Source of the DNA: Stentor roeselii
Taxonomy: Eukaryota > Ciliophora > Heterotrichea > Heterotrichida > Stentoridae
Direction of reading: 5' to 3'
Length of the DNA: 64,000 nucleotides
Assembly (NCBI GenBank): GCA_006503475.1
Contig: RSEH01000017.1
Coordinates: 170,508 to 234,507 of the forward strand
In this document: positions 11,898 through 64,000 of the stretch, piece by piece
How positions within the stretch are numbered: the first letter of the stretch is position 1
Layout of the letters: each line of letters starts with the position of its first letter
Program-made: the position numbers and the translations under genes
Notes under the pieces: generated by a model
The model's input: the letters and a program-made list of their open reading frames with translations, nothing else
The model's database searches: none
What the model was told of the DNA's origin: nothing

Positions 11898-11934
11898 GGA
11901 TTAATAATAAGTGAATTGATTCACTCGGATAAAT

Positions 11935-16393: not shown

Positions 16394-16780
16394 TCAGACC
16401 AACTCCGCATAGTCCCGAATTAACAGGTTTAGATGAACATCGAGGAAGTGCTTGATACGCTCTTCTAAATTTCCTTGAAATCTGCATTCACTGCAGTTTT
16501 TTATGACTTTTTTGCAGGTCTTTCCATGTTCTTCTCGTTGTTTTCGTAGAGGAGACTCGCCACATATGCAGTCGTAAGGAAGTTCTTCGATCATTGTTTC
16601 GACTATTCGGTTTGGGGTGAAGTGGCAGGTCTTCTTGTGAAGAGGACATCTGCTTAAGTTACCCACGCAGGTTATGCAGAATGTGTTGTTGCAGCAGGAG
16701 GCGATCACTGGAGAGATGAAAAGGTTTTGACAGGTTGGACATGTTAAGTTCTTTCGAAGAGCGTCGCCGAAGGATGACAT
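16394..16780 (-). CDS. Small RING/TRAF-type zinc-finger protein
   Basis: 128 aa. An N-terminal RING-like finger (residues 14-52) has CPTC, then ASCCNNTFCITC and RCPLHKKTC; the usual His between the third and fourth ligand pairs is replaced by a C/N-rich stretch. A second Cys/His group follows (YDCIC, HGKTCKK, NCSEC, HFLDVH), typical of TRAF-like zinc fingers that follow a RING. The likely role is a ubiquitin ligase or a zinc-binding adaptor. The stop is 19 nt from the convergent coiled-coil gene. The ATG is only 8 bp from the ATG of the divergent HAD-ITPK gene, so the two must share a minute promoter or rely on sequence inside each other's coding region. Confidence 0.75.
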   Translation of the reverse strand: MSSFGDALRKNLTCPTCQNLFISPVIASCCNNTFCITCVGNLSRCPLHKKTCHFTPNRIVETMIEELPYDCICGESPLRKQREEHGKTCKKVIKNCSECRFQGNLEERIKHFLDVHLNLLIRDYAELV

Positions 16781-16788
16781 TGTTATAA
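16781..16788. promoter_or_regulatory. 8-bp divergent start-to-start interval with TTATAA
   Basis: The only DNA between the ATG of the RING gene (minus) and that of the HAD-ITPK gene (plus) is TGTTATAA. TTATAA is its own reverse complement, so both genes see a TATAA-like box within 0-2 nt of their ATG. Confidence 0.6.
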
Positions 16789-18510
16789 ATGAAGATTAAA
16801 GGAGTCATTTTTGATGTTGGACAAACACTCTCTAATCAACTTGATAAGGAAAGATTGGTTGAAAGGAATAAGAAGTACTATGGGTATGTTTATGATGAAA
16901 TATTGGCTAGGGGACTTGACCGGCATTTCCCCAGCCTCTCCTGCACTTCCCGCGAAACCTTCATAGAAGATCTAAACACCTTAAACCTAAGAACCCGTTC
17001 GGAAAAGAACGAATCAACCGAAGTCTTAAAAGAATACCGAATGAGTGAGCAAACTCTGGACATCTTACTATCAATCGAAGAAAAATCAAACAACCCTGTA
17101 GAAAAGTCCTCAATAGAATCTTTTTCTCTAAAAGTCCTCGACGAGATCTACTCGGGCACATCAGCTCTCGACGAAGGAGTTTACGAGTTATGGCCCGACA
17201 CGAAATCAACTCTTGAGTACCTTCGAAGCCAAGGGTACATTTTAGGTTTAGCATCAAATACAGCACATCCAGTAAAACACGAACACATGTTAGCAAGACT
17301 TGGAATAACTCCTTTAATCGACCATTTCGCAGTCTCTTCTTACATCGGCGTCAGAAAGCCTAACCCTGCAATGGTTGAAAACTTGTTGGAAAAGATGAAA
17401 CTTCGGAAAGAAGAAGTCATTGTTGTAGGTGACTTACTTGATAGAGATATTCTGATGGGGAACCTTGCAGGTACTCGCACTGTCTGGATCAATGCTATTC
17501 CTTACAGCCTTGAACAGAACCTGAAGAGGATTCGCGAAGGTGACGTCAAATATCGACCCACTGCTGGAATTGTTTGTCTTTCACAACTTCCAGAGACTAT
17601 TCAATATTTAGACCAATGCCAGAACTTTCAAGGGCAAGTAAGAGTTGCTTATTACTTCCCTTCATTAAGAAAAAAACTTGAAACTGGAAGGCAAAAGGCT
17701 TTTATTTCTAATGAAAAAGTTACTTATTTACCTGTTGAACTTAGAGCACCTATTGAAAATTTAGGGGAATTTGATGTTGTTGTTCATAAAGTCACTGATC
17801 TTTTACTTTCAAATGACCCGCATTCGAGAGAAGCTTTGGAAAATTTAAATGAGTTTCAAAGAAGGTACCCGGAAGTTCTTGTGATTGACCCTGTGAGTTC
17901 TTTGGAATTTACTAACTTTCGTTCGAGGCTTCCAATGGTCTGGAAGGAGAAAGTTGTTAAAGGGGTTAAAATAAGATGTCCAAGGATTTTTGAGAAGGAA
18001 TCGCCGGTCTTTCCTTGTATTGTGAAAACTGATACTGCTTGTCAGGTAGATGGCTCGCATGATATGATTGTTGTTCATGATAAAGGCTCTTTAGAAGATG
18101 CGATTAGTTCTTTTCAGATTCAGACTATTGTTCAGGAATGGGTTCCTCATGTTGCTATGTTTAAGGTTTATATTTTAGGAGAGTTTTATCAGGCTAGTCC
18201 TTGTAAAGTTATTTGCACTGAAGGGAATTTGAGGTTTAATAGTACCAGGATACCTGAAGAGTTTAGTGTGAATTCAAGGGTTTGTTTGGATGAAGAGGTT
18301 GTTTTAGAAGTTAATCGAGGTTTGAAAGAAGTTACTGGTTTAAGACTTATCAGCTATGATCTTGCAGTACAAGAGTCAGGAGACCTCGTGATAGTAGACC
18401 TGAACTACTTCCCTGGTTATTACACAGTGGAAGACTACGGAAAACAAATGGACGAGTTCATAATATCCTCCTATTTGAAGTCGAAAATACCCAAATCATT
18501 ACCTAATTAA
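16789..18510 (+). CDS. HAD-like hydrolase fused to inositol polyphosphate kinase (ITPK)
   Basis: 573 aa, two domains. Residues 1-270 are a HAD fold: motif I FDVGQTL (D9, but Gly11 where active HADs usually have the second Asp), motif II LASN (155-157 region), Lys190 in RKPNP and motif IV GDLLDRD (214-220). Residues about 284-570 are an inositol tris/tetrakisphosphate kinase of ATP-grasp type. Diagnostic blocks are RVAYYFPS, HKVTDLLL, LVIDPVSSLEFTNFRS, IVKTDTACQ, IVQEWVPHVAMFKVYILGE and the metal-binding VDLNYFPGY. It should phosphorylate inositol phosphates on the route to InsP5/InsP6. From memory, some plant ITPKs also carry an N-terminal HAD-like domain. The Gly11 change suggests the HAD half may be inactive or altered. 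Its stop overlaps the stop of the next, convergent gene. Confidence 0.88.
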   Translation: MKIKGVIFDVGQTLSNQLDKERLVERNKKYYGYVYDEILARGLDRHFPSLSCTSRETFIEDLNTLNLRTRSEKNESTEVLKEYRMSEQTLDILLSIEEKSNNPVEKSSIESFSLKVLDEIYSGTSALDEGVYELWPDTKSTLEYLRSQGYILGLASNTAHPVKHEHMLARLGITPLIDHFAVSSYIGVRKPNPAMVENLLEKMKLRKEEVIVVGDLLDRDILMGNLAGTRTVWINAIPYSLEQNLKRIREGDVKYRPTAGIVCLSQLPETIQYLDQCQNFQGQVRVAYYFPSLRKKLETGRQKAFISNEKVTYLPVELRAPIENLGEFDVVVHKVTDLLLSNDPHSREALENLNEFQRRYPEVLVIDPVSSLEFTNFRSRLPMVWKEKVVKGVKIRCPRIFEKESPVFPCIVKTDTACQVDGSHDMIVVHDKGSLEDAISSFQIQTIVQEWVPHVAMFKVYILGEFYQASPCKVICTEGNLRFNSTRIPEEFSVNSRVCLDEEVVLEVNRGLKEVTGLRLISYDLAVQESGDLVIVDLNYFPGYYTVEDYGKQMDEFIISSYLKSKIPKSLPN

Positions 18511-19118
18511 GCACCTTTAGTGCAGATATAAATAAAATGCGGGGTCTTGTCCTCATCACTCGTTGGCTGAGCCGTCGGAATAGAGGGCTTGGGGACAGTG
18601 AAAGTATCCACTCTCCAGTTCAGCCCAGTCCTCCTTAAATACGGAATCCTTTCATCAGGAGGGGCGAAAGTGACCAGCAGGTACTTTCCGTTTGCTTTAA
18701 GCACCTTGTAGACCTCTTGCAAGTACCTCAAAGAGTTGTCTATCGAGTTATCGGCACACAAAATAGTGTCCAAAGTCGCCTTGTCAATCGCCACATCGAA
18801 GGACCCCGCTGGGAAAGTCATCCTCAGCGCGTCCATATGAATAAATTGGTTGTTACCTTTGCCTTTATGCTTTTCTATCATTTTCCTGATCACTACCTCG
18901 CTGATGTCGATGTTTACGTGCTCTTGGTTCTTGTGGTCCTCAAGCATCTCCTCAGCCAGTCGGGAATTTCCGCAGCCAAGATGAAGGATTTTCTTCTCAT
19001 TCTGGAGAGCGTTGTCAAATACGAGCCTTAAGCCAGTCCATCTTTGGTACCAATCGAAAGGATCATTTTCGCTTGTATACCTTTCATTCCAGTATGCCAC
19101 AGTTGAATATTTGGCCAT
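18507..19118 (-). CDS. Class I SAM methyltransferase, eEF1A-lysine (METTL13/EEF1AKMT4) type
   Basis: 203 aa. It starts with the family signature YWNERY, then DPFDWYQRW, the SAM-binding motif I ILHLGCGNSRLAEEM, acidic post-I residue NIDIS, and motif II/III DVAIDKATLDTIL (animals: DVVLEKGTLDALL), then VYKVLKANGKYLLVTF. This is the methyltransferase 11/25-like group that methylates lysines of elongation factor 1A in animals and yeast; which residue it modifies here cannot be told. It is a single-domain protein, unlike METTL13. The stop codon (18507-18509) overlaps the stop of the HAD-ITPK gene (18508-18510) in the palindrome TTAA. Confidence 0.82.
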   Translation of the reverse strand: MAKYSTVAYWNERYTSENDPFDWYQRWTGLRLVFDNALQNEKKILHLGCGNSRLAEEMLEDHKNQEHVNIDISEVVIRKMIEKHKGKGNNQFIHMDALRMTFPAGSFDVAIDKATLDTILCADNSIDNSLRYLQEVYKVLKANGKYLLVTFAPPDERIPYLRRTGLNWRVDTFTVPKPSIPTAQPTSDEDKTPHFIYICTKGA

Positions 19119-20104
19119 TCTTTTTTTAAATTATTAGAAATGGATTCTGGATTTTACGTGTTTAGGATTATTAAATATCATAGAATTAGTTTAGAGTGAT
19201 TATGGGTGCTTTGGACGGGGGTTCAAGGGGAGGACTGAGAGGAGAAGATAGGGTAATTGAAGAGTTTGAAGAGGGATGAGGATTGTTGATAGAATATCGA
19301 AGCTTGATGCGATTGGAAGGCTGATGAGGGATATTTTTGTCTGAGTGGATGTTGAAGAATAGTAAAATTTGGATTTGATTAGTTTTAGTTTTAACTTCTA
19401 GATGGAGTTAAATGTTTTATGGAATGAATGAGGCGTGATCTTTAATCATTTGGATATTTGTTTGTTTGGTGTTAGAAATGAAGGATTGTCTAGTTAAAAA
19501 ATTTTGGAAATTTAGGAAAAACTATTTGATTCAGTGATTTATGGTTTTGTTTATTAAACTTATTTTTAAGGATTTGTTTAATTTCAAGTATTAAACTTTT
19601 CCTTGAGTTTTTATAAAGAAATATAGACATTATCGTAAATGCACCATATAAGATGTTCGGATTATCGGATTTATGTTAAACTTATAAAAATGTTGAAGAC
19701 TTATAAGGTTTTCTTGAATTTTTTATATTTGATTCTGGTCTTAGAGTTTTAATATGATTTTTTATCATTTTTCATTAGAAATAGACTTGCCAATTGTTTT
19801 ATATAATAAATAAAATATTTATTATTCTAAGAAAACTTTTGAATAGTTAGTAATTTATAGGTTAGTTAAAAATCGGTTTAAATAGATTCAAATAATCTGA
19901 TTATTCATTGTAAGATTAATCATAGATGAAATTTAACGATTAAAATAGAGAAATTTGTTGTAGCTAGTACGGATTATTTATCGATTTCAGTCTAAACTAT
20001 TATGATAATAACAAGATTTATTGAAAAGTACACAAAAATGAATTCCCTAGTATCAAATAAATTTAAGAGATGCTATAATTGATAATAATATCAATTTATT
20101 TACT

Positions 20105-20173
20105 ATCACTAAATGATTTATATACTCATCACTAAATGATTTATATACACATCACTAAATGATTTATATTCAC
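20105..20173. repeat. Three tandem copies of a 23-bp repeat
   Basis: Three consecutive, almost identical units beginning ATCACTAAATGATTTATAT, differing only in the last four bases. The repeat is AT-rich and includes the near-palindrome ATCA..TGAT. Function unknown. Confidence 0.85.
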
Positions 20174-20686
20174 CATCTAAAAAATGATTTCTAAAAGTGG
20201 CTTAGTACTAGAATCTCTTATTAATTCAATAAATCTGTTTATTCAAGATAGTAAAAATACTTTTCAATTATTCTCAACAGATCTACTGAAATTAGAATTC
20301 AGTGGTTTCATAGAAAATGTATTGAATCATGCTAAATTATAATCCAAATAATAAGTTTTATATATCTTTGGAAATATGTAAATTAATAGAAACTTTGTTA
20401 AAGGGAAGCAATTTAGAGGTGGAAACTGCCTTTGTAGAAATTGTATACTTGATATAATATTCTTGTTGAGAAATTAGTTTGATTAAAGGTATCTTATAAT
20501 TACTCAGGTGAAAATTTATTTCAGTAACCACTTCAAAAGAATAGAGACTCCAACTTTAAACCCTGGAATCCTTTTAAAAAATTTATCATTCTTGAAGCAA
20601 ATCAATTGAATATATTTCAAAGAGTATGTTTAAAAATACAAATTTGTTCATAATATTAAAATTATAGTGTAAATTTTTGAAAAAGC

Positions 20687-20760
20687 GACTCCACTGAGAC
20701 TTGAACTCAGACCCCCGAACGCAGTAGCATATCGGCACTCTTCCTTTGAGTTATGGAATC
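20687..20760 (-). repeat. tRNA-like element, copy 1
   Basis: Read on the minus strand, a 7-bp acceptor stem pairs GATTCCA with TGGAGTC. The D arm is ACTC/GAGT with GG in the loop. The T arm is a perfect 5-bp stem around TTCAAGT (B box GTTCAAGTC). The anticodon arm is not canonical: a CCGA/TCGG stem closes a 13-nt loop, and no clear U33-anticodon is readable. I therefore treat it as tRNA-derived rather than as a working tRNA, though an unusual intron-containing tRNA is not excluded. Confidence 0.55.
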
Positions 20761-20910
20761 CATTATATTTATTCATTTTAGTTTTAAGAAGCCTGCTGAA
20801 TGTGTGTGCAATTTCACTATCTTAAAGATATGTGAACTATTATAAAATAGAATTAACTTCAATAATTTGTCTTGTAATTTTGGAAAGTGAGTATATTTAA
20901 AATTTTTTAA

Positions 20911-20984
20911 TCAATTACTGAGACATGAATTCAGATCCTCAACCTGCAGGTTATTGGCACTTTAACTTTTTGAGTTATTAAATC
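20911..20984 (-). repeat. tRNA-like element, copy 2 (degenerate)
   Basis: Same layout as its two neighbours but with many changes: the acceptor stem is eroded (GATTTAA), and the T arm is CTGAATTCATGTCTCAG with a mismatch. Recognisable mainly by position and by the ATCTGA...TCTCAG arm. Likely a decayed copy. Confidence 0.4.
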
Positions 20985-21116
20985 AATGATTATTTAACTC
21001 AAAAGTTTAATATTTTTCACAAGTAATAACAATTGAATACCTTTGTAAGTAATCTTTAAAAATAAATATATGAAATGATTATACTATGGTGAATAATATA
21101 AACAAATGTAAAAAGC

Positions 21117-21190
21117 GACTCCACTGAGACTTGAACTCAGATCCCCGGAATGGATAATTTGGCCCGGTACTCTAATTGAGTTATGGAATC
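21117..21190 (-). repeat. tRNA-like element, copy 3
   Basis: A 7-bp acceptor stem (GATTCCA with TGGAGTC, one T-G pair) and an intact T arm identical to copy 1. The D arm is ACTC/GAGT with a short loop lacking GG. The anticodon arm is CCGG/CCGG around a 15-nt loop. The flanking AAAAAGCGACTCC is shared with copy 1, so the duplicated unit extends beyond the tRNA body. Confidence 0.55.
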
Positions 21191-21768
21191 TATTAGAAAC
21201 TTACTTCACGAAACTAAGTACAAAGTAAATTGCATCCAAGATTTAATGATAATAAGTCAAACTAATAAAACTTCAAAGAGGAAATATTTTAAGCAGAAAC
21301 TCAAGCCAAGACATTCTTTATGATAATCTTCATTTATAGATATCTAAAAGCTTATATCGCATGAATAAACGAGGCAAGTAATGATTATAAAATGCAAAGA
21401 ATAAATAAGCTTATTTATTATATTAAAACTGATCTCTATTCTTATCAATTCCAATAAAATCACACTTTTAAATCAATTTTCATATATAAATCCCTAAAAA
21501 CTCACTAACATTCTAAAATCTCCAAAATTCCTAAAGTTTCTAAAGCAATCCATCATAAAAAATAATTTTCATCATTTCAACTAAAATTTCTTAAAACCCA
21601 AACAAAAAACCTACTTTCAAGAATAACGAAACATTAAAAAATATTAAAAATCCAAAAAAATCTCAATTTTTTCTCAACTAAAAAATCCTCTAAAACCAAA
21701 AAAAAACCTAAAAAAAAATTCACCATCCAAGAATTCTTTCCATTCTTCAAACCACTTGCATAACCAAC

Positions 21769-22263
21769 ATGCGAAATTATTTTTATCCAAGTCCAGGGAG
21801 TAACTTTCACATTCATTCCTGGGAAAGTTGGAACAAGCTAGGCTCTTCACTTCTTAAAAAGTCTTCAACTCCAAAGCATCATTCAAAGAGTCGTCTGAAT
21901 CCAAAGTTTTCCTCAATACAAATTTCAAGTAAAGGCCATTCGAACCCATCAATAACAGTGAAAAAAGCATCAAACTACGTGAAATACAATCGAAAAAAGT
22001 CAGATAGTCATCTGGATATCTTTCAGTCAAGTGATGATAATAAAACAGTCCTTTTGAGAAAGTCTCTTCCTAGGCCTATTCATCTTTTCGAGTCACCAGA
22101 AATCGCGATTCATTTGAGAGGAACAAGAATTCAGTCAAGTCGCCAAAAAACAAACAGAAAACGGCCTGTGAGTTCGAAGACTCTTGGGCGAGCTAGGACT
22201 CAGCAACGTTCATATACGACAGCCAAGCAGATGGACGAACTAGAGACCCCAACTCCTTGGTAA
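21769..22263 (+). CDS. Basic serine-rich protein, unknown function
   Basis: 164 aa, very rich in Ser, Lys, Arg and Pro, with no membrane segment and no recognisable domain; probably largely disordered (for example KSSTPKHHSKSRLNPK and RQKTNRKRPVSSKTLGR). The composition would fit a microtubule-, RNA- or DNA-associated protein, but this is only compositional. The ATG is preceded by a typical C-rich flank though not by a TATAA box. The stop is 10 nt from that of the convergent coiled-coil gene. Confidence 0.55.
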   Translation: MRNYFYPSPGSNFHIHSWESWNKLGSSLLKKSSTPKHHSKSRLNPKFSSIQISSKGHSNPSITVKKASNYVKYNRKKSDSHLDIFQSSDDNKTVLLRKSLPRPIHLFESPEIAIHLRGTRIQSSRQKTNRKRPVSSKTLGRARTQQRSYTTAKQMDELETPTPW

Positions 22264-22273
22264 TTAAATTAAA

Positions 22274-23338
22274 TTAATGCAATTTCGACTCACCTACAAA
22301 CTTCTGCGAAAAGTTCAATTCAAGTTCAGAAGCATTTGAATACATGGGACTAGCCGAGGTGCTAAACGAGCTGCTCAAGACTGAGAACTTTTTACTCATC
22401 TGTCCTTTCAAACCTGCCGCTTTCACCAGAGGCTTCTCATCAACTCCTGAAAGACTCTGCCCACGCCTTGCTAATCTTTTCAAGTACTTTTCATTAAGTC
22501 TCGGAGTTTCAATAACCGTTTTCGCTACTTTCAATTCTTTTTTCAATTGATCAATGAAATCATTTTGTCTCTTACTGATCAAAAATCGTATTTTTAGCTC
22601 TTTTTCTACATCTTGTTTGAAAATTTCGTATTTTTCCTGCACGGACTTGATTTTTATCTCACAAAGGTCTTTAGTGTCAGTGATTTCTTGAATTAAGTCA
22701 CTTTTCGCCTTGGCGAAAAGTAAAAGAGATTCCTGATGAACCTTTTCCAGATCTTTTAAAGCTTCTTCAGCTTTTTCCGCATCTTTTTGGTAGATCGATA
22801 CGAGTTCTTTCATATGTTGAATTTGAATATCAAAGCCAATTCGATGATATTTCATTTCTTCTTTAATTTCTTTAACTTTCTCCTCTTCTGAGTACTTATT
22901 TCCCTTATCCAGTCTCAAATAAGTCACTTTTTGTTCCTGGTCAATTAAAAGTCTTTCAAGTTGACTGATCTTCAAATCTTTCACCTTTAAAAGTCGTTCT
23001 AAAGAAATAAACTCCAATCTTAAAGAACTGATTTGTTCACTATGAAGACTTTTCAATTTTTTTACTTCTTCCTCATGTTTTTTCGTCAAAGCTTTCGTGG
23101 AACTGATAAGTCGAGTCTCAAGCTGCATGTCAGAAGCGATTCGCATTTGTGAAATAATGAGATTCATCTGGTCTCTATAGAAAATGACAGGAACGGTTTC
23201 AACGAAGTCTTTCACTTTTTCTTCTAAGGACCTTTCCTCTGAAGTTTTTAAGACTCCCGGCTTGTCTTGTTGAAGGTCGACTTGTTTTTCGAGGTCTTGC
23301 CAGAATTCGGACTCTGAGTCAGAAAAAACTTTATCCAT
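22274..23338 (-). CDS. Coiled-coil protein, unknown function
   Basis: 354 aa. The acidic N-terminus (DSESEFWQDLEKQVDLQQ) leads to about 220 residues of heptad-rich helix (residues about 70-290; for example LKSLHSEQISSLRLEF and KDLKISQLERLLIDQEQKV). The C-terminal tail of about 60 residues is Ser- and Lys-rich. The layout resembles ciliate or centriole coiled-coil proteins, but I cannot assign a family. It lies 31 nt from the next minus-strand gene, so the two may share transcription. Confidence 0.62.
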   Translation of the reverse strand: MDKVFSDSESEFWQDLEKQVDLQQDKPGVLKTSEERSLEEKVKDFVETVPVIFYRDQMNLIISQMRIASDMQLETRLISSTKALTKKHEEEVKKLKSLHSEQISSLRLEFISLERLLKVKDLKISQLERLLIDQEQKVTYLRLDKGNKYSEEEKVKEIKEEMKYHRIGFDIQIQHMKELVSIYQKDAEKAEEALKDLEKVHQESLLLFAKAKSDLIQEITDTKDLCEIKIKSVQEKYEIFKQDVEKELKIRFLISKRQNDFIDQLKKELKVAKTVIETPRLNEKYLKRLARRGQSLSGVDEKPLVKAAGLKGQMSKKFSVLSSSFSTSASPMYSNASELELNFSQKFVGESKLH

Positions 23339-23369
23339 GAATTTTTATTTAAAGTATTAATATGTTGAT

Positions 23370-24101
23370 TTATTTCAGAGCTGAGCTGTATTTACAAAGG
23401 TTTTCAAGGATTGGACTTAATAGAAAGTTTTTTTTTAGTTTTTTAGAATCGGAAAGTGGAGACTTTTGATGATGTCGAGTTTCAGGGTCTTTGATTTGAT
23501 CGGAAATTTCGAGTTTTGACTTGTTTTTTAGCTTGTTTAAGGAAAGGTTAGAACTTGAGTTTTTGAAGAGGTTTGAAGTGAAAGGTTCTGTTTTTTTGTA
23601 TTTTATTAGCTTTTTTGATGGGGAGAAGAGGAAGTAAGAAGAGGATGGACTGACCGGGATCATTGAAAAAGTACGTTTTTCAGAAGATTTTAGGACTGAT
23701 GATTTTTTTGATTGTCTTTTCAGGTAAGAATCGGACTTTTTGTGGAGATTTAAGACTTTTGGCTGGGAGTCTTCTAGTTGAACTGTTTTTTGAACTATTT
23801 TGGTCTTTTTTGTTATTGTTTTTTGGACTTTTTGAGCAAGGCTTAGATGGTTTTCACATCTTAGAGGACTTAACTTGGGAAAGTGGAAACCTGGATGAAG
23901 GATTGGTTTTAGGTTTTTTGAGTCTTTTGAAAGGATTATGTCTGGAGAGATGCTTTTTGTGATTTTTTTGGAGAGGTTTAGATCTTTTTTGTTTTTGAAC
24001 CAACTTGTGAGTTCGTCTGTGTTGGTTTTGTCTATGCTCATTGTGATACTTTCTTCCTCATTCAATAAACTTTCAATAATCAAATTTTCCTTTTGATTCA
24101 T
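23370..24101 (-). CDS. Lysine/serine-rich protein, unknown function
   Basis: 243 aa dominated by Lys, Ser and Leu, apparently disordered, without a recognised domain. It contains repeated short basic-serine patches (KKSDSYLKRQSKKSSVLKSS, SPSKKLIKYKK) that look like kinase substrate sites. TTATAAATC precedes the ATG. The upstream region holds the RPS7 pseudogene on the opposite strand. A real gene is likely from length and flanks, but the function is unknown. Confidence 0.5.
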   Translation of the reverse strand: MNQKENLIIESLLNEEESITMSIDKTNTDELTSWFKNKKDLNLSKKITKSISPDIILSKDSKNLKPILHPGFHFPKLSPLRCENHLSLAQKVQKTITKKTKIVQKTVQLEDSQPKVLNLHKKSDSYLKRQSKKSSVLKSSEKRTFSMIPVSPSSSYFLFSPSKKLIKYKKTEPFTSNLFKNSSSNLSLNKLKNKSKLEISDQIKDPETRHHQKSPLSDSKKLKKNFLLSPILENLCKYSSALK

Positions 24102-24261
24102 GATTTATAATCTAAATTCTCTAAACTAAAAATCCAACCCTCCCAAATTTTATTCCATTCCCAAACCATCAATCTTTTCCTGTATAATAATTCTAAGCCA
24201 CATATCAGACCCTAGTTAAAAAATCCACAACAAGGCCAAAAATCCCCAGAGTTTGAAAACC

Positions 24262-24758
24262 ATGTCGCCAATATTAAGCGAGATCGAAGCCTCATCATCA
24301 GACCTAAATCCGATTTAAAGAAATCCGAATAACAAGCGCAAATGAATTCGAGTCAAACTACCGAGAAAAATATCTTCAATAATTATTTTCATTCACCACA
24401 AGTCTGAAAATTCTCTTCAAAAGGTTCATCATCGTCTTCAAAATGAACTTTTTAAAAGATTCAGAAAACCAGTTGTTTTATTACTGCAAAGAACAATTTT
24501 AGCTAAGTACTTTAAAAGTAAAGGACTTTGACTTAGGTTCATGAAGATTTTTTAGAGGATTTGGACTTTCTAACTAATGTTTTGGGGAAAAGGGTCAGGG
24601 TCAAGGCTGATAAGAGAAAAGTCTTTAAAGTCATTTAGAATCCTAACTCGAGAGATGAGGTGCAGGAGAAACTTGATATTATTAACCCTGTTTATAGAAA
24701 GCTCATGAATAAAGAAGCCGTTTTTGAATTCCCTCAAAGCCGAGATTTCCTAGTTTAA
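24262..24758 (+). pseudogene. RPS7: Ribosomal protein eS7 (RPS7) pseudogene
   Basis: Pieces of RPS7 appear in order but in different frames: MSPILSEIEASSSDLNP, then (shifted) KEIRITSANEFES, then (shifted) IIIFIHHKSENSLQKVHHR and FRKPVVLLLQRTILAK. After another shift come VHEDFLEDLDFLTNVLGK, RVRVKADKRKVFKVI, a TAG, and NPVYRKLMNKEAVFEFPQ. The animal protein has ELNITAAKEIE, AIIIFVPVPQLKSFQKIQ, HVVFIAQRRILPKP, VHDAILEDLVFPSEIVGKR and GVYKKLTGKDVNFEFPE in the same order. At least three 1-2 nt frameshifts plus in-frame stops rule out 15-nt introns as the cause. The copy cannot make the 40S subunit protein; a functional gene must exist elsewhere. Confidence 0.85.
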
Positions 24759-31806: not shown

Positions 31807-31815
31807 ATTATTATC

Positions 31816-32706: not shown

Positions 32707-32787
32707 TTATAACCAAATTCATTAAATCTCATCAACTTTAACTGTCGACACCTTCTTTATCACACCTAGTGAAAAAATTCTTGATAA

Positions 32788-34434
32788 ATGTCAGAGTCTC
32801 AACTGTTCATCGCAGCTGTTTACAAAGCCGACCTTCAAGAAATCTACAGAGTGCTTCGTAGGACATCAGTGCATCCTTATCAATGTAAAGACAGTCGCGG
32901 TCATACCGCGATGCACATCGCAGCATTAAACGCGAATTTATCGATAATAAACTTTTTAGCAGACTATGTAAAAACTAAGCAGGTGACTTACAAATACAAA
33001 CTTGAAGCAAAGGAAATACTAGAGAATTGGGTAAACATGCAAACTGATGAAGGTTTTTTAGCTGTTCACTTCGCTGCTTTTAAGGGGTATATGGTGAGAG
33101 AAAAATAGAAAATATTGAAAAGACTTATTGCTTTAGGCTCTGATTTGAGAGGGACTAATAATCAAGGACTGACTTTAATGCATGTCGCTGCTCAAGGCGA
33201 CCAGGCATTGAGTTTGGTTTATCTTCAGGAACTGGGACTGAAGATTGACCCTCTTGATGAAAAGGGAGGGACTCCTCTGCATTGGGCTTCGTATATGGGA
33301 TGTGAAGTTGCAGCTTCTGTCGTTCTTTCTTGGTACTCTAAAGAACAAGTGAATAAACAGGATGATGATGGACATAGTCCTTTGCATCTTGCAACTATTG
33401 CTGGAAATTCAAGGATTGTCAAGAATTTATTGCTTAAAGGGGCTGATCGAAGAGTTCAGGATAAGAAAGGAAAAACTCCGAGAGAAGTAGCGATTGAAAA
33501 AAATCATAGCAGCTTGGTTGCCATGCTTAAACAACCGGGACTGTTCGCGGAATGTGGAGTTAAACCGCCTTTGAGACCACCGCAGCCGAATTATATGTCG
33601 GTTAGTTTTTTTATACTTTTCTTTGGTGGTGGGGTGCTGCTCACAATGATCTTTTCAATTCAATACATCCACTACGTTCCCAGCATTCTCTTCGGTATCC
33701 AAGTGGCCTTCACAATCTTCCTATTCCTTCTGGTGCTAAACCGTGACCCTGGTTACCTTCACCCAGACCCTGGTCTTCCCCTTCTGACCTTATACGAAAA
33801 ATACGAAAGCCACCTGGTATGTCCAGACTGTAAAATCTTCAGACCGCCCCGTTCTCGACACTGTCAATGTTGCGACAAATGCGTAGAAAAATTCGACCAC
33901 CACTGCCCATGGGTGAGCAACTGCATCGGGGCAAGGAACTTAGGACTTTTTTTTTCCTTCATCAACTCAATCTGGGTGTCTCTCATCTACTGCATGGTTG
34001 CCAGTCTTGTAGTCCTCACCTCTGACCATAAAGATAAAGGACTTTACACAGTCCCCCTCGAAGTCGATAAAGTCTTAGCAGGGCTCATCGGCTTCGTCGC
34101 TTTGATTTTTTTCTTTCCTGTCAGTTATCTTGTTTATGTTCATTATAACAACTTCAGGAAAAATAGTACAACTAATGAAAGGTTTTCTAAATCGAATCAA
34201 AAAGAAGAAGACCAGGTTAATACCTTGAGTTTTGTTGTACCTAATCAAAGTTGTTTTAAAAACTTTTACTCGATGTGTTGCAATACTGGAAAACCTAGTC
34301 GAGTTTCTGTTGAATTTAGAAAAGTTGAGGAGATTGATGAGGATTATAAAGAGATTTTGAAGGATTTCGAAAAACAATACGGGTCTCCCAGGAATGTTTC
34401 GATGATGGACTTGATGAGCCAAGGTAATAAGTAA
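32788..34434 (+). CDS. Ankyrin-repeat DHHC palmitoyltransferase, two exons
   Basis: Exons 32788-33093 and 33109-34434 around a 15-nt intron; 543 aa. Residues about 5-260 carry ankyrin repeats ([52 protein letters not shown]). Two transmembrane helices at about 266-310 are followed by the cysteine-rich domain [35 protein letters not shown] (about 339-375) with the catalytic DHHC, and two more helices near 388-455. The protein is of the zDHHC13/17 (HIP14, yeast Akr1) type and should S-acylate proteins at Golgi or endosomal membranes. The active-site DHHC is intact. Confidence 0.93.
33094..33108 (+). other. 15-nt intron in the ankyrin-DHHC gene
   Basis: GTGAGAGAAAAATAG, the only one of the six starting GTG rather than GTA. 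Removal joins GGG TAT ATG to AAA ATA TTG AAA and completes an ankyrin repeat. Retention ends in TAG. A at position 10. Confidence 0.9.
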
Positions 34435-34452
34435 ATTATTAGGAGGATATTA

Positions 34453-35811
34453 ATGAGTAAAGGGTTTGATGGGTTTAAAGCTTTAAACGTAAAGGAAAAG
34501 TCAGAGGTTATTGAAAAACATTTGAAAATTTCGCTTTGTAATACTTTTCCACTTGCTGAATGCATTCAGATCAGCTCGGATTCAACTTTTTTACTTACTG
34601 GGCATCAAGACGGGACCATCAGAAAGTGGAGCACTTTAAGTACTATGAAAGATTTGATAGTCGCTTCACATAAACTGAAAGTCCTGTCGATTTGTCTCAG
34701 TGACTCTCATTTAATTTCATCGGGTCAGGACAGCAAACTTAAAATATGGAGTCTTCCTGGTTTCCTTGAAATTTTCTCGTTCGATGTAAAAATCACTTCC
34801 TTGGCATTCCAAATCGCCTCCTCTTGTTTTTTTGCTGGTAGTGAAGAAGGAGAAATCTACAAAATTAACCTTAATAACAAATCTCCACTTTTCAAGAAAA
34901 ACTTGGGAAATACCGTCAGTTCTTTGATTTCTCTTCAAAATTATCATTTGATTCATGTAGGGTGTGAAGATGGCAGAGCTTTTTTTATTGAAAGTGATTT
35001 GAATGTGTTTGGAAACATGATGAACCATGATGCGAGTGTTTCTTGTGCATGTGAAAATGACTTTAAAGTAATCACCGGGTCTTCTGATAAATTTATAAGG
35101 GTCTGGAGGACTGAAACTCAAGAACTTCTGATGAAATCCTTAACAACTATCACAATTTTCTTAAATCTCCAAATCTACAAAGAAACTTTAATAATCACCC
35201 CTCTCGGAAAATTTCTCATTTTCTTAAACCTCGATTCTCTTTCACTGATTCAAGAGTTAAATTTCGAAGAGAACTTAAAATGTTCCTTATTATTAAAAAA
35301 CCAGTTATTTTACTCAGGAACTCACAGAAATTTAAGAGTTTTCGACCTTGAAACACGGTCAACAGGTAGGGTGTTAAATGGCCACAAGTCAAACATTGTC
35401 TCTTTAGTCTTGAGTTCCCCTCCAGATCTTCTTGCATCAGGAGGTCGAGACAACACAATCCGTGTCTGGGACCTGGCCTTGGGACTACAAGTGAAAATCC
35501 TCTACGGCCATAAAAGTCTTGTTCGTTTTTTATGCTTCGCTGATGAAAACTCTAAAATTCTTTCGATTTCCGATGACAAGACCTTGAAAATCTGGGACTT
35601 AGCAAGTGAAATAGTTTCCAAAAGTATTTCAGTCACTTCAGTCCACACAAAACTCAGCTCAAACTTGTCTTATCTAAAAGGGTGGATTTCATATATTTGC
35701 AATGATAACACTTATCAACTATGGAGCATGGCGAAGCTTGAAAAACCTTTGAAAATCTCTAGAAAGTACCTTTTTTTATTGAAATATCGAAAGAAAGTTA
35801 GAGTATTTTAA
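34453..35811 (+). CDS. WD40-repeat protein
   Basis: 452 aa forming at least seven WD40-like blades across the whole length. Clear units are GHQDGTIRKW, GQDSKLKIW, GSSDKFIRVW, GGRDNTIRVWDL (preceded by LNGHKSNIVSLV) and SDDKTLKIWDL (preceded by LYGHKSLVRFL). There is no extra domain, so it is a scaffold or adaptor whose partner cannot be told from sequence. It follows the DHHC gene after 18 nt with ATATTA before its ATG, and ends 8 nt from the stop of the convergent C2H2 gene. Confidence 0.85.
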   Translation: MSKGFDGFKALNVKEKSEVIEKHLKISLCNTFPLAECIQISSDSTFLLTGHQDGTIRKWSTLSTMKDLIVASHKLKVLSICLSDSHLISSGQDSKLKIWSLPGFLEIFSFDVKITSLAFQIASSCFFAGSEEGEIYKINLNNKSPLFKKNLGNTVSSLISLQNYHLIHVGCEDGRAFFIESDLNVFGNMMNHDASVSCACENDFKVITGSSDKFIRVWRTETQELLMKSLTTITIFLNLQIYKETLIITPLGKFLIFLNLDSLSLIQELNFEENLKCSLLLKNQLFYSGTHRNLRVFDLETRSTGRVLNGHKSNIVSLVLSSPPDLLASGGRDNTIRVWDLALGLQVKILYGHKSLVRFLCFADENSKILSISDDKTLKIWDLASEIVSKSISVTSVHTKLSSNLSYLKGWISYICNDNTYQLWSMAKLEKPLKISRKYLFLLKYRKKVRVF

Positions 35812-35819
35812 TATTAAAA

Positions 35820-36257
35820 CTAAAGACTTGGCAATTTGAACTCTTGAGGTGAAGAGATTTTAGGAAGTAAGTTCTTTGCACCGAAGCCTCCATCGATTCG
35901 GTATTTTCTGACTTTTTCTTCATTCTTTGTAAGAATTGAAGTCACCAGGTCGATGTTGATGTCCTCGCCGGTGACTTGGATGAGTTTTATGTTGTTGTGG
36001 ATGCGCTTGTGGGCTGAATATTGACTTGCATGCCGAAATCTTTTTCCACAGCCGAGTTCTTTGCAGATGAAAGGAATTTCTTTCGAGTGGGTCATCAGAT
36101 GCTCTTGAAGATTTTGCTTGGAGGATAAAACCTTTTGGCAGTAGTGACATTGGAACTTTTTTGTTGAACCGTGAAGAGCGTCTTTGTGCCTTTTGAGGTT
36201 AATTTTAGACTTGTATCGTTTTTTACACCCTGGCTCATCGCAACAATAGGTATCCAT
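35820..36257 (-). CDS. C2H2 zinc-finger protein
   Basis: 145 aa with three C2H2 fingers in the first 85 residues: CDEPGCKKRY with HKDALH, CHYCQKVL with HLMTH, and CKELGCGKRF with HKRIH. The spacing of the first and third (C-x4-C) is TFIIIA-like. A tail of 60 residues lacks a known domain. Probable nucleic-acid-binding regulator. CAATA precedes the ATG; the 166 bp upstream separate it from the phosphatase gene on the same strand. Confidence 0.85.
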   Translation of the reverse strand: MDTYCCDEPGCKKRYKSKINLKRHKDALHGSTKKFQCHYCQKVLSSKQNLQEHLMTHSKEIPFICKELGCGKRFRHASQYSAHKRIHNNIKLIQVTGEDINIDLVTSILTKNEEKVRKYRIDGGFGAKNLLPKISSPQEFKLPSL

Positions 36258-36423
36258 TATTGAATTATGGCCTAGCTCTACTATTGTTAATGCTTGTTAG
36301 CTGAGTTTGGGTAAAATATGGAAATTATTATGATAAAAATGAAATGAATGTCTTGATAATAGAGGCATTTTTCACTTTATTAATTAAAACTTTTTAACCT
36401 TTTCGAGATCTTGAAAATCCATG

Positions 36424-37491
36424 TTATTTATTATCAAGTTGTCTGAAGTACTCTTCCATATCTTCATCACTATCCTTATCTATTTTAACAACTTCGAAAG
36501 ACTGAGAGTTTTTTTCATTAAACTGAATGATTGACCTGGAAAAAGACCCATCAAGCACTTCTTCATTCAAATCAAGGAAAAAGTCCAAAGTAAACATTTC
36601 TGGAAACCTAGAGTCAACAAAAGCTCCATCAATTTCTTGTCTTGTAAACCTAAAGACCTCATTTTCCACAAAAGCCGTGTGAAACATGACCCTAAAAATA
36701 GTAAAAGTATTATTTTTCCCCAAATGTCTGCATCTTATAAGCACATCTTCCTCCACCACCAAGTTCAAATCAAAAACAAAGCTCAAGTCACTTTCTCCAA
36801 AAACCTGTGGAGGTGAATCTCGATCATGAGAAGCATAAACAAGATCAGAATTCTGAAAGACCTGCAAATAAGGCCTGACAGTTCCATCTTTTTCAATGCG
36901 AGGAATGCCGTCGACGATGATTTTCTTGATTCTGAGTCTTCTGCTGTTTGGCGCCGGCCTTTCAACGAGCTCTTGGATGTACTTTAAGTATCTGAGTTGA
37001 GAAGGCAGTAGTTCAACTGGGTGCTTGCTTAGTTTAGAGACCTTGCGAAAGGCGTTCATTATCATTTTCTCCTCGCCTGTCCAGAGAAGGTAACCTGCAA
37101 GGACCATGCAACTCCGAGTCCCGGTTTTTTGACAGTGGATTAAAGCTTTATTTTCAGAGTCTTTCAGAAGCCAACGTGATATTGACTCGAAGATCGAGAA
37201 GAATATGGAAAGGTGAGGGTTTGGGTACCCGACGTATAAGAATTCGGAACATTTTCCGGAGAATTGGTCACTGTCGTAACTGTATTCGCTTAGGTTCCAG
37301 ATCTTGTAGTGGTCTTGGTATAGCCTTTCTAGGTATTGGTGAAGATGATGGCTTTGACATGATGGGAATGGGATCAGGATCAGGTTCTGAGATAGTGGCA
37401 ATAGCTCCAGCTCATCAGAAGCGGAGTCATCTGAAGGTGCATGGTCTTGCTTCTTGATTTTTTTCATAAGACTGCCTACAAACTTGTTCAT
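36424..37491 (-). CDS. PTEN/auxilin-like phosphatase plus C2 domain
   Basis: 355 aa. Residues about 25-180 are a PTEN-type dual-specificity phosphatase domain: CSEFLYVGYPNPH, then the P-loop IHCQKTGTRS near residue 119 (HC-x5-R kept), and LLPSQLRYLKYIQEL, which matches SPSHRRYLGY of auxilin/GAK and IPSQRRYVYY of PTEN. Residues about 185-350 resemble the PTEN C2 domain (LRIKKIIVDGIP, LQVFQNSDLVY, LIRCRHLG). The loop lacks the two lysines of PTEN (HCKAGKGR), and the N-terminal Asp of the WPD loop is not obvious, so lipid phosphatase activity is uncertain. No J domain follows, unlike auxilin. Confidence 0.78.
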   Translation of the reverse strand: MNKFVGSLMKKIKKQDHAPSDDSASDELELLPLSQNLILIPFPSCQSHHLHQYLERLYQDHYKIWNLSEYSYDSDQFSGKCSEFLYVGYPNPHLSIFFSIFESISRWLLKDSENKALIHCQKTGTRSCMVLAGYLLWTGEEKMIMNAFRKVSKLSKHPVELLPSQLRYLKYIQELVERPAPNSRRLRIKKIIVDGIPRIEKDGTVRPYLQVFQNSDLVYASHDRDSPPQVFGESDLSFVFDLNLVVEEDVLIRCRHLGKNNTFTIFRVMFHTAFVENEVFRFTRQEIDGAFVDSRFPEMFTLDFFLDLNEEVLDGSFSRSIIQFNEKNSQSFEVVKIDKDSDEDMEEYFRQLDNK

Positions 37492-37901
37492 GCGATTTAT
37501 TAGAGCTAGGGAACTCGGTATGATGATTGAGAAGTATTCAGTTGATACAAAAGATTAAGATTAGAATTTTACCACAAGGAACTTTTTGAAGGATAATTAT
37601 TTTAAGTTATTTAATATTTAGGTTTTACAACCTTTAGTCTAGAAAAACATTAAAAATCGATTATTTCAGCTTATTTCTCAGTTTTATTATAAAGTACTGC
37701 AAGTCCTCGTTCCTCATATTTTCCAACTTCTTCTAAAACTTAATAAAACACCCTCTACCTTCTCAATCACCAACTCACTAACAATTCCAACCGGTTCAAA
37801 TAACATCTTTCTTCCATTTCCTAATTTCCATCTCCAAAAATTCCCTGATCTATCCAAATTCTTAAATTTAATGAAAATATGATTGAATATCTAAGTAATT
37901 G
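37492..37901. promoter_or_regulatory. Divergent intergenic region
   Basis: 410 bp between the phosphatase gene and the cyclin gene, which diverge. The skew flips in the middle: G-richer on the plus strand near 37500, strongly C-rich and G-poor at 37740-37860 next to the cyclin start. Nothing else recognised. Confidence 0.45.
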
Positions 37902-38636
37902 ATGGATCAGTATAAAGAATTTACTTACACCAACGAGACTCTCCTTTACTTGCTCGAACGATCCAAGTCATTCCATGAAAAAGTCTCTTTCGATTACTTG
38001 AAAGAAATCCAGATTGGAAAAATAACATCAAGTAACCGAGAGTCAATCATTCACTGGCTTGCCGAGATCTGTGAAGAAAAGTCTTTTTCTAAGAAAGTTG
38101 AGCAGCTGGCGATTTCTTACATCGACTTGTTCTTGTCCAGGAAGGCACTTCCGGACCCGTCATTATTGGAACTAATCACTTACATTTGCTTATCTTTGAG
38201 TTTGAAATATGAAGAATTGCGGCATCTCAGCTTTTCAGACATTTTTTATTTATGTGGGCAGAGGTTCAGTGAAAAAGTGATACAAACGACCCAGATTTAT
38301 ACCTTGAGTCTTTTGGACTGGCAACTCGAGATTCCCACTCCTGGAGAAATCTTGACTTATTTGCTGATCACGACTTGTGAAAACTTCCAATGGGAACCGA
38401 TAGTAAAAAGTGCTGAAGGGTTCATGATGGTTGCTCGAAGTGACTACGAACTATCCCGTCAGCCTCTCGTTTCAATCGCCATAGCCAGTGCGCTATGCGT
38501 ATTCGAGAAGTCCAAACTGACAACATTTGCATCAGAGTGGCTGAACCAGTTATCAATATCTTACGGGTTCAGCTCAGATTCGCTGAAAGAACTAGCCAAG
38601 GGTATCTGGGACAAGGTGAATTCATATAAGCACTAA
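37902..38636 (+). CDS. Cyclin
   Basis: 244 aa from the ATG at 37902 (a TTG codon directly upstream extends the frame but is unlikely to be used). The first cyclin box (about residues 25-150) contains NRESIIHWLAEICEEKSF, VEQLAISYIDLFLSRK and LITYICLSLSLKYEEL, then LDWQLEIPTPGEIL; these match N-terminal cyclin boxes, with the MRxxLVDWL helix varied. A second, more divergent box follows (PLVSIAIASALCVFE). It should bind and activate a CDK. The subtype is uncertain: D-like or a ciliate-specific cyclin. A destruction box is not obvious. Confidence 0.8.
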   Translation: MDQYKEFTYTNETLLYLLERSKSFHEKVSFDYLKEIQIGKITSSNRESIIHWLAEICEEKSFSKKVEQLAISYIDLFLSRKALPDPSLLELITYICLSLSLKYEELRHLSFSDIFYLCGQRFSEKVIQTTQIYTLSLLDWQLEIPTPGEILTYLLITTCENFQWEPIVKSAEGFMMVARSDYELSRQPLVSIAIASALCVFEKSKLTTFASEWLNQLSISYGFSSDSLKELAKGIWDKVNSYKH

Positions 38637-38649
38637 TAATCTAACTAAT

Positions 38650-39369
38650 TTATAATTGGTTATTTACCTCATTATCCACTATCAAAATCTTCTCAGCCAC
38701 TTCAAAAATCGTATCAAGACTCTGCAAAACTTCATCATGTAATCTACTTCCTTCAAAGCGAATCTGAACTCCTTGTTCTAAAACTTCTTCAGGTTTATTT
38801 TCCTTCAAACTACAGACCCTCAAAACATCTCCAGTTCCAAATTCATGAAAAATTCGAGTTTCAAAGCTCCTGACGACTTTTCGAGTTAAAAATAAAGAGC
38901 TTCTTGCAAGACAAAAGAAAAATCTCGGCATGACTCGAATTTTTACAGTGAAGTCCGATTTTTCCATGATAGTATTCATGGAAAAAAGATTGATTTCTGA
39001 AAACCATTGAATTGGGTCGTTTCTTTTAAGTTTTTCCACGTCAATGACATCGACACTATCTTCAATAACAACAAGGCCATATCGATACCGAGGCCTGACA
39101 CTTCCAATATAACTAGAAAAACTCGAGTTTTCTTCAAAAGGCTTGCAAAATTTCGTGCCTTGTCCCAAAACCTGGCTTTCCAGGCATTTTTTTTGTGACT
39201 GAGGGTCAACCAGTCCAAGTGCTTCAAAAGTATGAAACTCAAAAGCGATTCCTGCACGTTGGTTCAAAAGACTTAAAAAACTATTCGAATAAGTCGTTAA
39301 AAGTCCTTTTTTCTCTTCATTTCCCGAGTTAGATTCAAAATGCCAGTCATCTATCCTGAACCTGTCCAT
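38650..39369 (-). CDS. TIPRL: TIP41-like protein
   Basis: 239 aa, close to the family length. Diagnostic blocks are GIAFEFHTFEAL (GIEFNATDAL in human TIPRL), VDVIDVEKLKRNDPIQWF (TDHIDTEKLKAREQIKFF), FTVKIRVMPRFFFCLAR (LSVKIRVMPSSFFLLLR) and TRIFHEF. TIP41/TIPRL binds catalytic subunits of PP2A-type phosphatases and regulates them within TOR signalling. The stop lies 13 nt from the convergent cyclin stop, and the ATG is 13 bp from the ATG of the divergent RING-DUSP gene, with GATATAA abutting it. Confidence 0.9.
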   Translation of the reverse strand: MDRFRIDDWHFESNSGNEEKKGLLTTYSNSFLSLLNQRAGIAFEFHTFEALGLVDPQSQKKCLESQVLGQGTKFCKPFEENSSFSSYIGSVRPRYRYGLVVIEDSVDVIDVEKLKRNDPIQWFSEINLFSMNTIMEKSDFTVKIRVMPRFFFCLARSSLFLTRKVVRSFETRIFHEFGTGDVLRVCSLKENKPEEVLEQGVQIRFEGSRLHDEVLQSLDTIFEVAEKILIVDNEVNNQL

Positions 39370-39382
39370 TTATATCTTTTGA
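39370..39382. promoter_or_regulatory. 13-bp divergent start-to-start interval
   Basis: TTATATCTTTTGA separates the ATGs of TIP41 (minus) and the RING-DUSP gene (plus). It holds a TATA-like box right at the TIP41 ATG. Any shared promoter longer than this must lie in coding DNA. Confidence 0.6.
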
Positions 39383-40807
39383 ATGGAGTGTCCAGATTGC
39401 CATCTGCCTTGGTCCTCAACTGAAGTGGTTCCCCGGATCCTTTCATGTGGACATACCTTGTGCGAGGCCTGCGCACTGAGAAGGTTCGACTCGACTCGAG
39501 TACTGTGCCAGGAATGCCGAGTTTTTCATGTTTTTGCCCTGGACAGGGACTTCAGCGAGACTGACAAAGACTACTCAAGCAGGTGCATTGGAAGTTTAAG
39601 CAAAAATTTCACTTTGCTTTCAATCGCTTCTGCTAATAGGAACTCAAATGACGTCGCTGATTTCGAATTGGAAATCTGTGAAGAACACAACTTGCCACTT
39701 CATAGCTTCTCGGTCAAGCCTGAAAGTGAACTTTGTGATGAATGTCTTCAAGATGTTCAGGATCTCGGACTTGATATAAGACCTATTCCTAAAGTTTGTG
39801 AGTATTTCGATGGACTTATCAAGAAACTCGCGAAAATCATGAATGGACATCTTGAGAAAATTGATCAGTTTTTGGATAAGAGAAGAAATAATGAAAATTT
39901 TGAAAAGTTTAAAGCGGAAGAAACGATTTCTAACTTTTTTGATGGGTTTTTCACGGCTGGTGATAGTGTTTTAGAAGATGTTGAAAGACAGTTAAAGGGA
40001 AAAATCAGAGATATTGAGGAGAATAACAGGAAAGTTAGAGAGCAGGTCGGTAATCGCAAGGAAATCCTTGGAAACCTCATCAGTCAGGTGAAGTACCTGG
40101 ACTCGCTATCAGACGAGGACCTGGTTCAAAAGGCAGAAATCTGCGAAAACCTTTTATCAACAACAAGACCTTTAGAAGAGCTACTAACCGTAAAATCTTT
40201 ATCATTTTCAAGCAACAAGGCAAAACTAATGAAACTAAAAAGCATAATCGAGAACTCCTACAAAATCTCCTTAAAAAAATACCTAAACACCTGGACCTGC
40301 TCAAAATGCTCTTCAGTTAACCAAGACGGGCAAATCAGTTGTCAGTCCTGCAAGTTATTCAGACCAATAGAAACTTATCCTCACCTTTCTCGCCATCCTT
40401 CTTTAGCTTCAGAGCAGGAGCTTCACGAGTTGAACCTGCGACGACAGTCAGAAATTCAAAGAATAAGCCAACTTGATAAGATTGACCCGGGCGGGATTTA
40501 TTTTTTAATCCACGCGGGGTGGGTCAACAAGTGGAAAGAGTTCGTTTTGAATAAAGGACAAGAAAAACATGTGAATAAAGAAGGTTCAACGTGTTTTTTA
40601 CCCCCAGGGCCTGTTTGTAATCATTTGTTGTTTGAGGACGAGGCTTGTCTGGTGATAAAGAAGAAGCTTAGGGCTGCTGTTGACTATCGAGGACTGAATC
40701 AGCAGGTCTGGGATGCTTATATCGAGATCTACGGCGGGGGTCCTCAGATAAAAAGAAGAAAAGTCAGTATTTACGAGGGGTCTGGACAAAGTGGCCAGGG
40801 TAATTAA
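39383..40807 (+). CDS. RING - coiled coil - RanBP2 zinc finger - DUSP protein
   Basis: 474 aa with an unusual domain order. Residues 3-45 are a C3HC4 RING (C3, C6, C22, H24, C27, C30, C42, C45; LSCGHTLCEACALRRF). A possible B-box-like remnant (CEEHNLPLHSF, CDEC) follows, then a coiled coil at about 135-290. Near residue 303 lies a RanBP2-type finger WTCSKCSSVNQDGQISCQSC. The C-terminal 110 residues look like a DUSP domain (YFLIHAGWVNKWKEFV, PPGPVCNHLL, DYRGLNQQVWDAYIEIYGG), a module otherwise typical of deubiquitinases. It is therefore a TRIM-like putative E3 ligase that has acquired ubiquitin-binding and USP-type modules. The DUSP call is by eye. Confidence 0.78.
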   Translation: MECPDCHLPWSSTEVVPRILSCGHTLCEACALRRFDSTRVLCQECRVFHVFALDRDFSETDKDYSSRCIGSLSKNFTLLSIASANRNSNDVADFELEICEEHNLPLHSFSVKPESELCDECLQDVQDLGLDIRPIPKVCEYFDGLIKKLAKIMNGHLEKIDQFLDKRRNNENFEKFKAEETISNFFDGFFTAGDSVLEDVERQLKGKIRDIEENNRKVREQVGNRKEILGNLISQVKYLDSLSDEDLVQKAEICENLLSTTRPLEELLTVKSLSFSSNKAKLMKLKSIIENSYKISLKKYLNTWTCSKCSSVNQDGQISCQSCKLFRPIETYPHLSRHPSLASEQELHELNLRRQSEIQRISQLDKIDPGGIYFLIHAGWVNKWKEFVLNKGQEKHVNKEGSTCFLPPGPVCNHLLFEDEACLVIKKKLRAAVDYRGLNQQVWDAYIEIYGGGPQIKRRKVSIYEGSGQSGQGN

Positions 40808-63924: not shown

Positions 63925-64000
63925 GGTGTTAGGGTGTTAGGGTGTTAGGGTGTTAGGGTGTTAGGGTGTTAGGGTGTTAGGGTGTTAGGGTGTTAGGGTG
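63925..64000 (+). repeat. Telomere, (TGTTAGGG)n
   Basis: About 9.5 perfect copies of the 8-mer GTGTTAGG / TGTTAGGG run to the end of the window; the G-rich strand runs 5' to 3' outward, as expected at a right chromosome end. The complementary CCCTAACA is the repeat I recall for Stentor and related heterotrichs. The array may be longer than the window shows. Confidence 0.97.

Follow-up and report, generated by a model that had tools for sequence, protein, structure and literature searches.

Two pairs of head-to-head genes in the analysed stretch of contig RSEH01000017.1 (positions 170,508 to 234,507 of the forward strand, 64,000 nucleotides; hereafter the window) have start codons only 8 and 13 bp apart. 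In many of the genes sampled from the same assembly (44.39 Mb, 522 contigs), a short AT-rich word, TATAA or its shorter form TAA, stands immediately upstream of the ATG. The sequence is consistent with leaders of almost no length and with a minimal AT element that could work in either direction, with no separate promoter space, a reading to which we assign about an even chance. ATGs 8 bp apart set a hard upper limit on any promoter in the spacer: either it measures a few base pairs, or it lies inside coding sequence. Either outcome would let nature show plainly how little DNA suffices for RNA polymerase II, in what is, judging by heterotrich-like features, probably a free-living cell and not a reduced parasite.

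Divergent pairs and their start codons

The first pair is joined by CAT-TGTTATAA-ATG at positions 16778–16791, with the 8-bp spacer at 16781–16788; its TTATAA palindrome (16783–16788) adjoins the ATG of the plus-strand gene. This HAD-ITPK gene (16789–18510, 573 amino acids) is supported by its reading frame and by Pfam matches to HAD (1.1e-17) and Ins134_P3_kin (3.1e-15). A HAD domain and an inositol-phosphate kinase domain are thus fused in one protein; an N-terminal HAD-like fold is also reported for plant ITPK4 (PMC7614388), hence the fusion has a distant precedent. The minus-strand partner (16394–16780, 128 amino acids), here called RING-like, is the most weakly assigned of the four proteins: a Pfam search at 0.001 gives no match, residues 5–47 show weak matches to RING structures in PDB (best E 0.001, TRIM72), and Sina_ZnF at E 0.011, below its cut-off, points to a possible Sina-like zinc finger.

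The second pair is joined by CAT-TTATATCTTTTGA-ATG at 39367–39385, with the 13-bp spacer at 39370–39382. On the minus strand lies a TIP41-like gene (38650–39369, 239 amino acids; TIP41 3.8e-22), and on the plus strand a RING-DUSP gene (39383–40807, 474 amino acids), which has a DUSP match (2.3e-14) and, at residues 2–46, a RING match under the Pfam cut-off. A minus-strand TATAA (39370–39374) adjoins the TIP41 ATG.

Both distances agree with those in a preliminary description of the window, as does the 37-bp gap (11898–11934) of a third pair, with ATGs at 11897 and 11935. Here the minus-strand gene (11400–11897, 165 amino acids) has no Pfam match at 0.001, and its plus-strand partner is XPO7-like (11935–14997), with a 15-nt intron, GTACTTTCCATTTAG, at 14401–14415.

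The start codons of the two closest pairs are flanked by in-frame stops, immediately before the ATG in HAD-ITPK (TAA), TIP41 (TAA), and RING-DUSP (TGA), and five codons upstream of it in the RING-like gene. The next in-frame ATG follows after 84, 130, 152, and 62 codons in HAD-ITPK, TIP41, RING-DUSP, and the RING-like gene, respectively, with coding scores of 25.9, 49.0, 63.0, and 24.9 nats over these intervals. A search of 300 nt for an upstream ATG attachable through a 15- or 16-nt GT-AG intron yields none in six of six genes; the same rule gives a mechanical match in 5 of 173 genes and recovers both of two positive controls. The preliminary description had held the four starts to be supported, and this is borne out by upstream stops 0–5 codons away and by at least 62 codons to the next ATG; neither exons attached through 15- or 16-nt introns nor downstream starts are indicated that would separate the genes. 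Barring longer introns, sequence alone could hardly fix the starts of either pair more firmly.

Gene spacing and the word at the start codon

Gene spacing was surveyed in 304.5 kb of the 44.4 Mb (0.7%), comprising the whole contig C91, 20 kb of C324, and five 10-kb stretches. The gene caller, based on dynamic programming, permitted introns of 15 or 16 nt and forbade overlaps; out of 199 calls, the 178 with a score of at least 25 were kept, and the 21 below 25 were dropped before counting. Called genes cover 77% of the surveyed sequence. Four pairs were regarded as ascertained, the three in the window and an 8-bp pair in C324 to which its motif had led, and counts are also given with these removed.

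The 171 adjacent pairs include 41 divergent, 41 convergent, and 89 tandem ones, with median gaps of 150, 39, and 142 bp, respectively; the divergent median (169 bp for un-ascertained pairs) is only modestly above the tandem one. Gaps of at most 20 bp are seen in 7 of 41 divergent pairs (4, 7, 8, 8, 8, 11, and 13 bp), 17 of 41 convergent pairs, and 17 of 89 tandem pairs, together 24% of all pairs vs. 5.6% under an exponential distribution of equal mean. As such gaps are frequent in all orientations, short spacing is not special to divergent pairs. With ascertained pairs excluded, 4 of 37 divergent gaps are this short; at score cut-offs of 15, 25, 40, and 60 the count is 4/38, 4/37, 2/31, and 1/28. 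Further close divergent pairs with good domain identities have gaps of 31 bp (RING/B-box and Dymeclin), 39 bp (RING/B-box and RCC1-repeat), and 53 bp (ankyrin and kinase). The two closest window pairs are the best-documented short end of a continuous range of spacing.

The four un-ascertained tight pairs have less certain starts than the two window pairs. In three of them one partner has a second ATG 10–17 codons in, with 1.1 to 3.1 nats between the two; in the fourth, with a gap of 7 bp, one partner is short and both lack a Pfam match at 0.01. Some frames of the 4- and 7-bp pairs continue upstream of the called start, either open over more than 30 codons or with an ATG there. One gene is IQUB-like in the 4-bp pair (L016:1–2403) and IQCH-like in the 11-bp pair (L027:1–3189).

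A signal word stands immediately upstream of the ATG in many of the sampled genes. TATAA occupies positions -5 to -1 at 20 of 174 starts vs. 0.41 per background position, ATAA begins at -4 in 39 (background 2.2), and TTATAA at -6 in 12 (background 0.21); without the eight ascertained starts (n = 166) the counts are 17, 36, and 10. At position -3, TAA is found in 49 of 174 starts, TAG in none, and TGA in one (46, 0, and 0 of 166 without ascertained starts), which argues for a word and not for a preference for stops. For the top 12 4-mers, and for the listed 5- and 6-mers with at least eight copies at one position, every peak begins between -7 and -4. The word is not confined to short spacers, as TATAA adjoins the ATG in 10 of 97 genes with more than 100 bp upstream. 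A score over the 8 nt before the ATG averages 1.73 in pairs at most 20 bp apart (n = 14), 1.89 in genes whose upstream spacer exceeds 100 bp (n = 97, the training set), and -1.52 at random positions; a stricter version gives 1.27 for un-ascertained tight pairs (n = 8, p = 0.0006 vs. random) and 1.55 for held-out long-spacer genes (n = 49). In both versions tight pairs score close to long-spacer genes and well above random positions. The signature would help to place start codons in the annotation of such genomes.

A TATA-like word 20–40 bp upstream of the ATG, as in Halteria, shows no peak among the listed 4- to 6-mers at the 174 starts, although a weak or variably placed TATA could escape such a count; the top ten position-free words in the interval -60 to -8 include no TATAA word. 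Spacers of 8 and 13 bp have no room for a canonical upstream TATA.

The suggestion in the preliminary description that divergent gaps under 20 bp carry a palindromic TTATAA holds in part. TTATAA lies within four of the seven spans of at most 20 bp, where shuffled gaps average 0.44 (P = 0.0006); one of the four had come to notice through this motif and another is the 8-bp window pair, and among un-ascertained tight pairs the count is 2 of 4. The 13-bp pair has no TTATAA, its TATAA adjoining TIP41 only. Genome-wide, CATN2TTATAAATG occurs 64 times, ATGN2TTATAAATG 37, CATN2TTATAACAT 17, and ATGN2TTATAACAT 3 times, with backward-read controls of 12, 12, 5, and 6, respectively. With the two left flanks summed, TTATAA is followed by ATG 101 times vs. 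20 times by CAT, where ATG and CAT differ in their neighbouring-base context.

The string CATTGTTATAAATG has six copies genome-wide, one in a window pair and one in the further 8-bp pair of C324. Another, in C396, lies in a pair with a gap of about 26 bp, provided that translation begins at the second ATG; at the three other copies no pair of long frames is seen. The copy at L006:1501–1514 lies between an ArfGAP-like frame (minus) and, past a five-codon frame, an arrestin-like frame (plus), with identities assigned by eye.

Possible promoters of the closest pairs

The preliminary description offered two options, a promoter inside the coding sequence of the partner or a minimal bidirectional TATA-like element as the whole promoter. 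The second is favoured by the sequence (TATAA at 20 of 174 starts, or 17 of 166), while the first leaves no compositional trace in the partner. Under the minimal-element reading, mRNAs would begin within about 0–10 nt of the ATG and would be near-leaderless, and the AT-rich word would be part of the start signal, combining initiator and translation context. Being short and often palindromic, it could serve both strands, so that no separate promoter space would be needed. That TATAA acts as a promoter rather than as translation context is inferred. In a stronger form, TATAA touching the ATG would be the core initiation signal, mRNAs would start essentially at the ATG, and one palindrome of 6–8 bp between two ATGs would suffice as the whole promoter for both directions, one of the shortest RNA polymerase II promoters; this form we regard as rather unlikely.

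Several observations weigh against the minimal element. The RING-DUSP ATG has no TATAA within 12 nt upstream, only TTATAT at -13 to -8. A TATAA fixed to the ATG fits a translation-initiation context equally well. The 64 divergent TTATAA flanks compare with 51 expected additively from independent start classes, an excess that is not significant, and a multiplicative expectation gives no excess. Stricter caller cut-offs leave fewer un-ascertained tight pairs (2 of 31 and 1 of 28). Finally, a zone of C over G extends up to about 200 bp upstream of long-spacer genes and is missing in tight pairs; it could be the true promoter region.

The best-surviving alternative, which we consider possible though doubtful, places the promoter and transcription start of each gene within the 5' part of the partner's reading frame, so that antisense 5' ends overlap and TATAA is translation context only. 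A conventional core promoter does not fit into the spacers, the fixed position of the word at the ATG is that of a translation context, and overlapping transcription is reported from the compact genome of Encephalitozoon (PMC2803860). However, the partner coding starts (first 57 nt, pairs at most 20 bp apart) are of ordinary coding composition: 62.0% AT (n = 14 sequences from 7 pairs, hence low power) vs. 60.3% in other coding starts (n = 148, p = 0.21) and 70.7% in upstream spacers (n = 80, p = 0.0002). The un-ascertained partner starts alone (n = 8) have 63.6% AT (p = 0.13 vs. coding starts, 0.006 vs. spacers). This argues against an AT-rich promoter in the partner, with the reservation that the comparison has little power and that promoters may have another composition. 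Against translation context alone, the generic AAAA at -4 is less enriched (22 vs. 4.9) than ATAA (39 vs. 2.2).

A composition gradient is seen along genes (L007–L031 and the window), with C over G from about 200 bp upstream into the first codons, and G over C near the stop and about 100 bp beyond. At fourfold sites the skew is +0.39 in codons 1–10 and declines to between -0.14 and -0.21 near the stop. The skew flip was considered as a sign of antisense transcription up to the ATG and rejected, since the fourfold-site skew continues smoothly into the coding sequence; the skew therefore gives no position for the start of transcription. Hypotrichs have a similar pattern of leader and trailer composition.

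It is improbable that the spacer normally drives only one gene per pair, the other being transcribed from a distant or cryptic start, or expressed weakly or in certain stages. The 13-bp spacer, whose TATAA adjoins TIP41 only, would suit such an arrangement; still, all four frames are open, and three of the four proteins, the weakly assigned RING-like one being the fourth, have significant conserved domains and hence are likely under constraint.

Ciliate DNA is excised at TA-type junctions, and both spacers contain TA; the gaps might be scars of macronuclear DNA elimination, with germline DNA excised at such a junction to join two starts. Ciliates do excise germline DNA, and a PiggyBac-type excisase has been proposed in Blepharisma (PMC9942806). 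We nevertheless hold this to be very unlikely, as a scar does not explain TATAA at the ATG where the spacer exceeds 100 bp (10 of 97 genes), and macronuclear transcription would still need a promoter there.

The least credible explanation is an annotation artefact, with true starts further downstream or upstream in unseen exons: it draws on the early second ATGs with little coding score before them in three of the four un-ascertained tight pairs, on the open upstream frames or upstream ATGs of the 4- and 7-bp pairs, and on the single un-ascertained pair of 28 left at cut-off 60, but for the two window pairs it is opposed by the upstream stops, the long distance to the next ATG, and the lack of an attachable 15- or 16-nt exon.

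Genome features and comparison with known systems

Judging by intron length, telomere, and TGA stops, the genome resembles the macronucleus of a heterotrich ciliate with the standard code. The window and contig end (about 63925–64000) in tandem GGTGTTAG telomere repeats, a permutation of CCCTAACA. The 27 introns in genes scoring at least 25 comprise 25 of 15 nt and two of 16 nt, the only lengths permitted to the caller; three 15-nt introns were read directly in the sequence. In HAD-ITPK the frame stays open when the 16-nt call is ignored, so this call seems spurious. In heterotrichs, about 95% of introns are reported as 15 bp and the remainder as 16 bp (PMC11441545). The XPO7 and ankyrin-DHHC frames are each broken by one 15-nt GT-AG intron; these introns end in TAG and account for an only apparent TAG read-through in the two genes. 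TGA is the called stop in 21 of 171 complete called genes, hence the genome does not follow the Blepharisma-type code, where UGA is tryptophan. Other codes (TAG as Gln, table 6, table 4) were tried, and the code was taken as standard; most main frames keep the same ends under table 4 (TGA as Trp).

Elsewhere in the window, two large proteins at 1376–4753 and 54524–57820 (both minus) are paralogous, with 31% identity over 1095 aligned positions; the former has an ANF_receptor ligand-binding domain (E 3.5e-24) and the latter no Pfam match at 1e-4. Neighbouring small proteins at 46360–46881 and 47179–47706 (both minus) have a common 33-residue cysteine motif (19 of 33 identical) and no Pfam match at 1e-4.

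Among the matches listed in searches of literature on heterotrich and ciliate genomes, promoters, and starts, titles and abstract openings mention no such ATG-to-ATG gaps, which is no proof of absence; nor do they mention a ciliate with multi-gene chromosomes in which TATAA adjoins the ATG and head-to-head starts are separated by 8 bp. Published reports show a precedent for each ingredient in Encephalitozoon, Giardia, and Halteria.

Blepharisma stoltei is reported to have short intergenic and untranslated regions, introns mainly of 15–16 bp, and a telomere repeat that is likewise a permutation of CCCTAACA (PMC9942806); it differs in the UGA codon, which here ends genes as TGA. Nucleomorph genomes, too, have very little intergenic space (PMC8887012); these, however, are relict endosymbiont nuclei. 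In Giardia, 5' untranslated regions of 1–14 nt are reported and promoters are suggested to be bidirectional (PMC3610916). The resemblance lies in the compact genome, short AT-rich promoters, short leaders, and proposed bidirectional starts; the leader lengths and antisense transcripts of Giardia come from RNA data, whereas the present features are read from DNA, and Giardia is a diplomonad parasite, while the genome here has 44 Mb and ciliate features.

Encephalitozoon cuniculi has 5' untranslated regions shorter than 7 nt and a CCC-like motif immediately upstream of the start (PMC2803860). As here, the signal lies just upstream of the coding start, there in most genes, and is usable for start prediction; the word, however, is CCC, with data from rapid amplification of cDNA ends, in contrast to TATAA or TAA in the present genome. 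Halteria grandinella, also a ciliate, has a TATA-like motif on 7,061 of 9,060 single-gene chromosomes and very short leaders, the mean 5' untranslated region being about 18 bp (PMC7858049). On its gene-sized chromosomes the motif begins on average 17 bp ahead of the transcription start, from which it is about 18 bp further to the ATG; here, in contrast, the word touches the ATG and spacers are shared between two genes.

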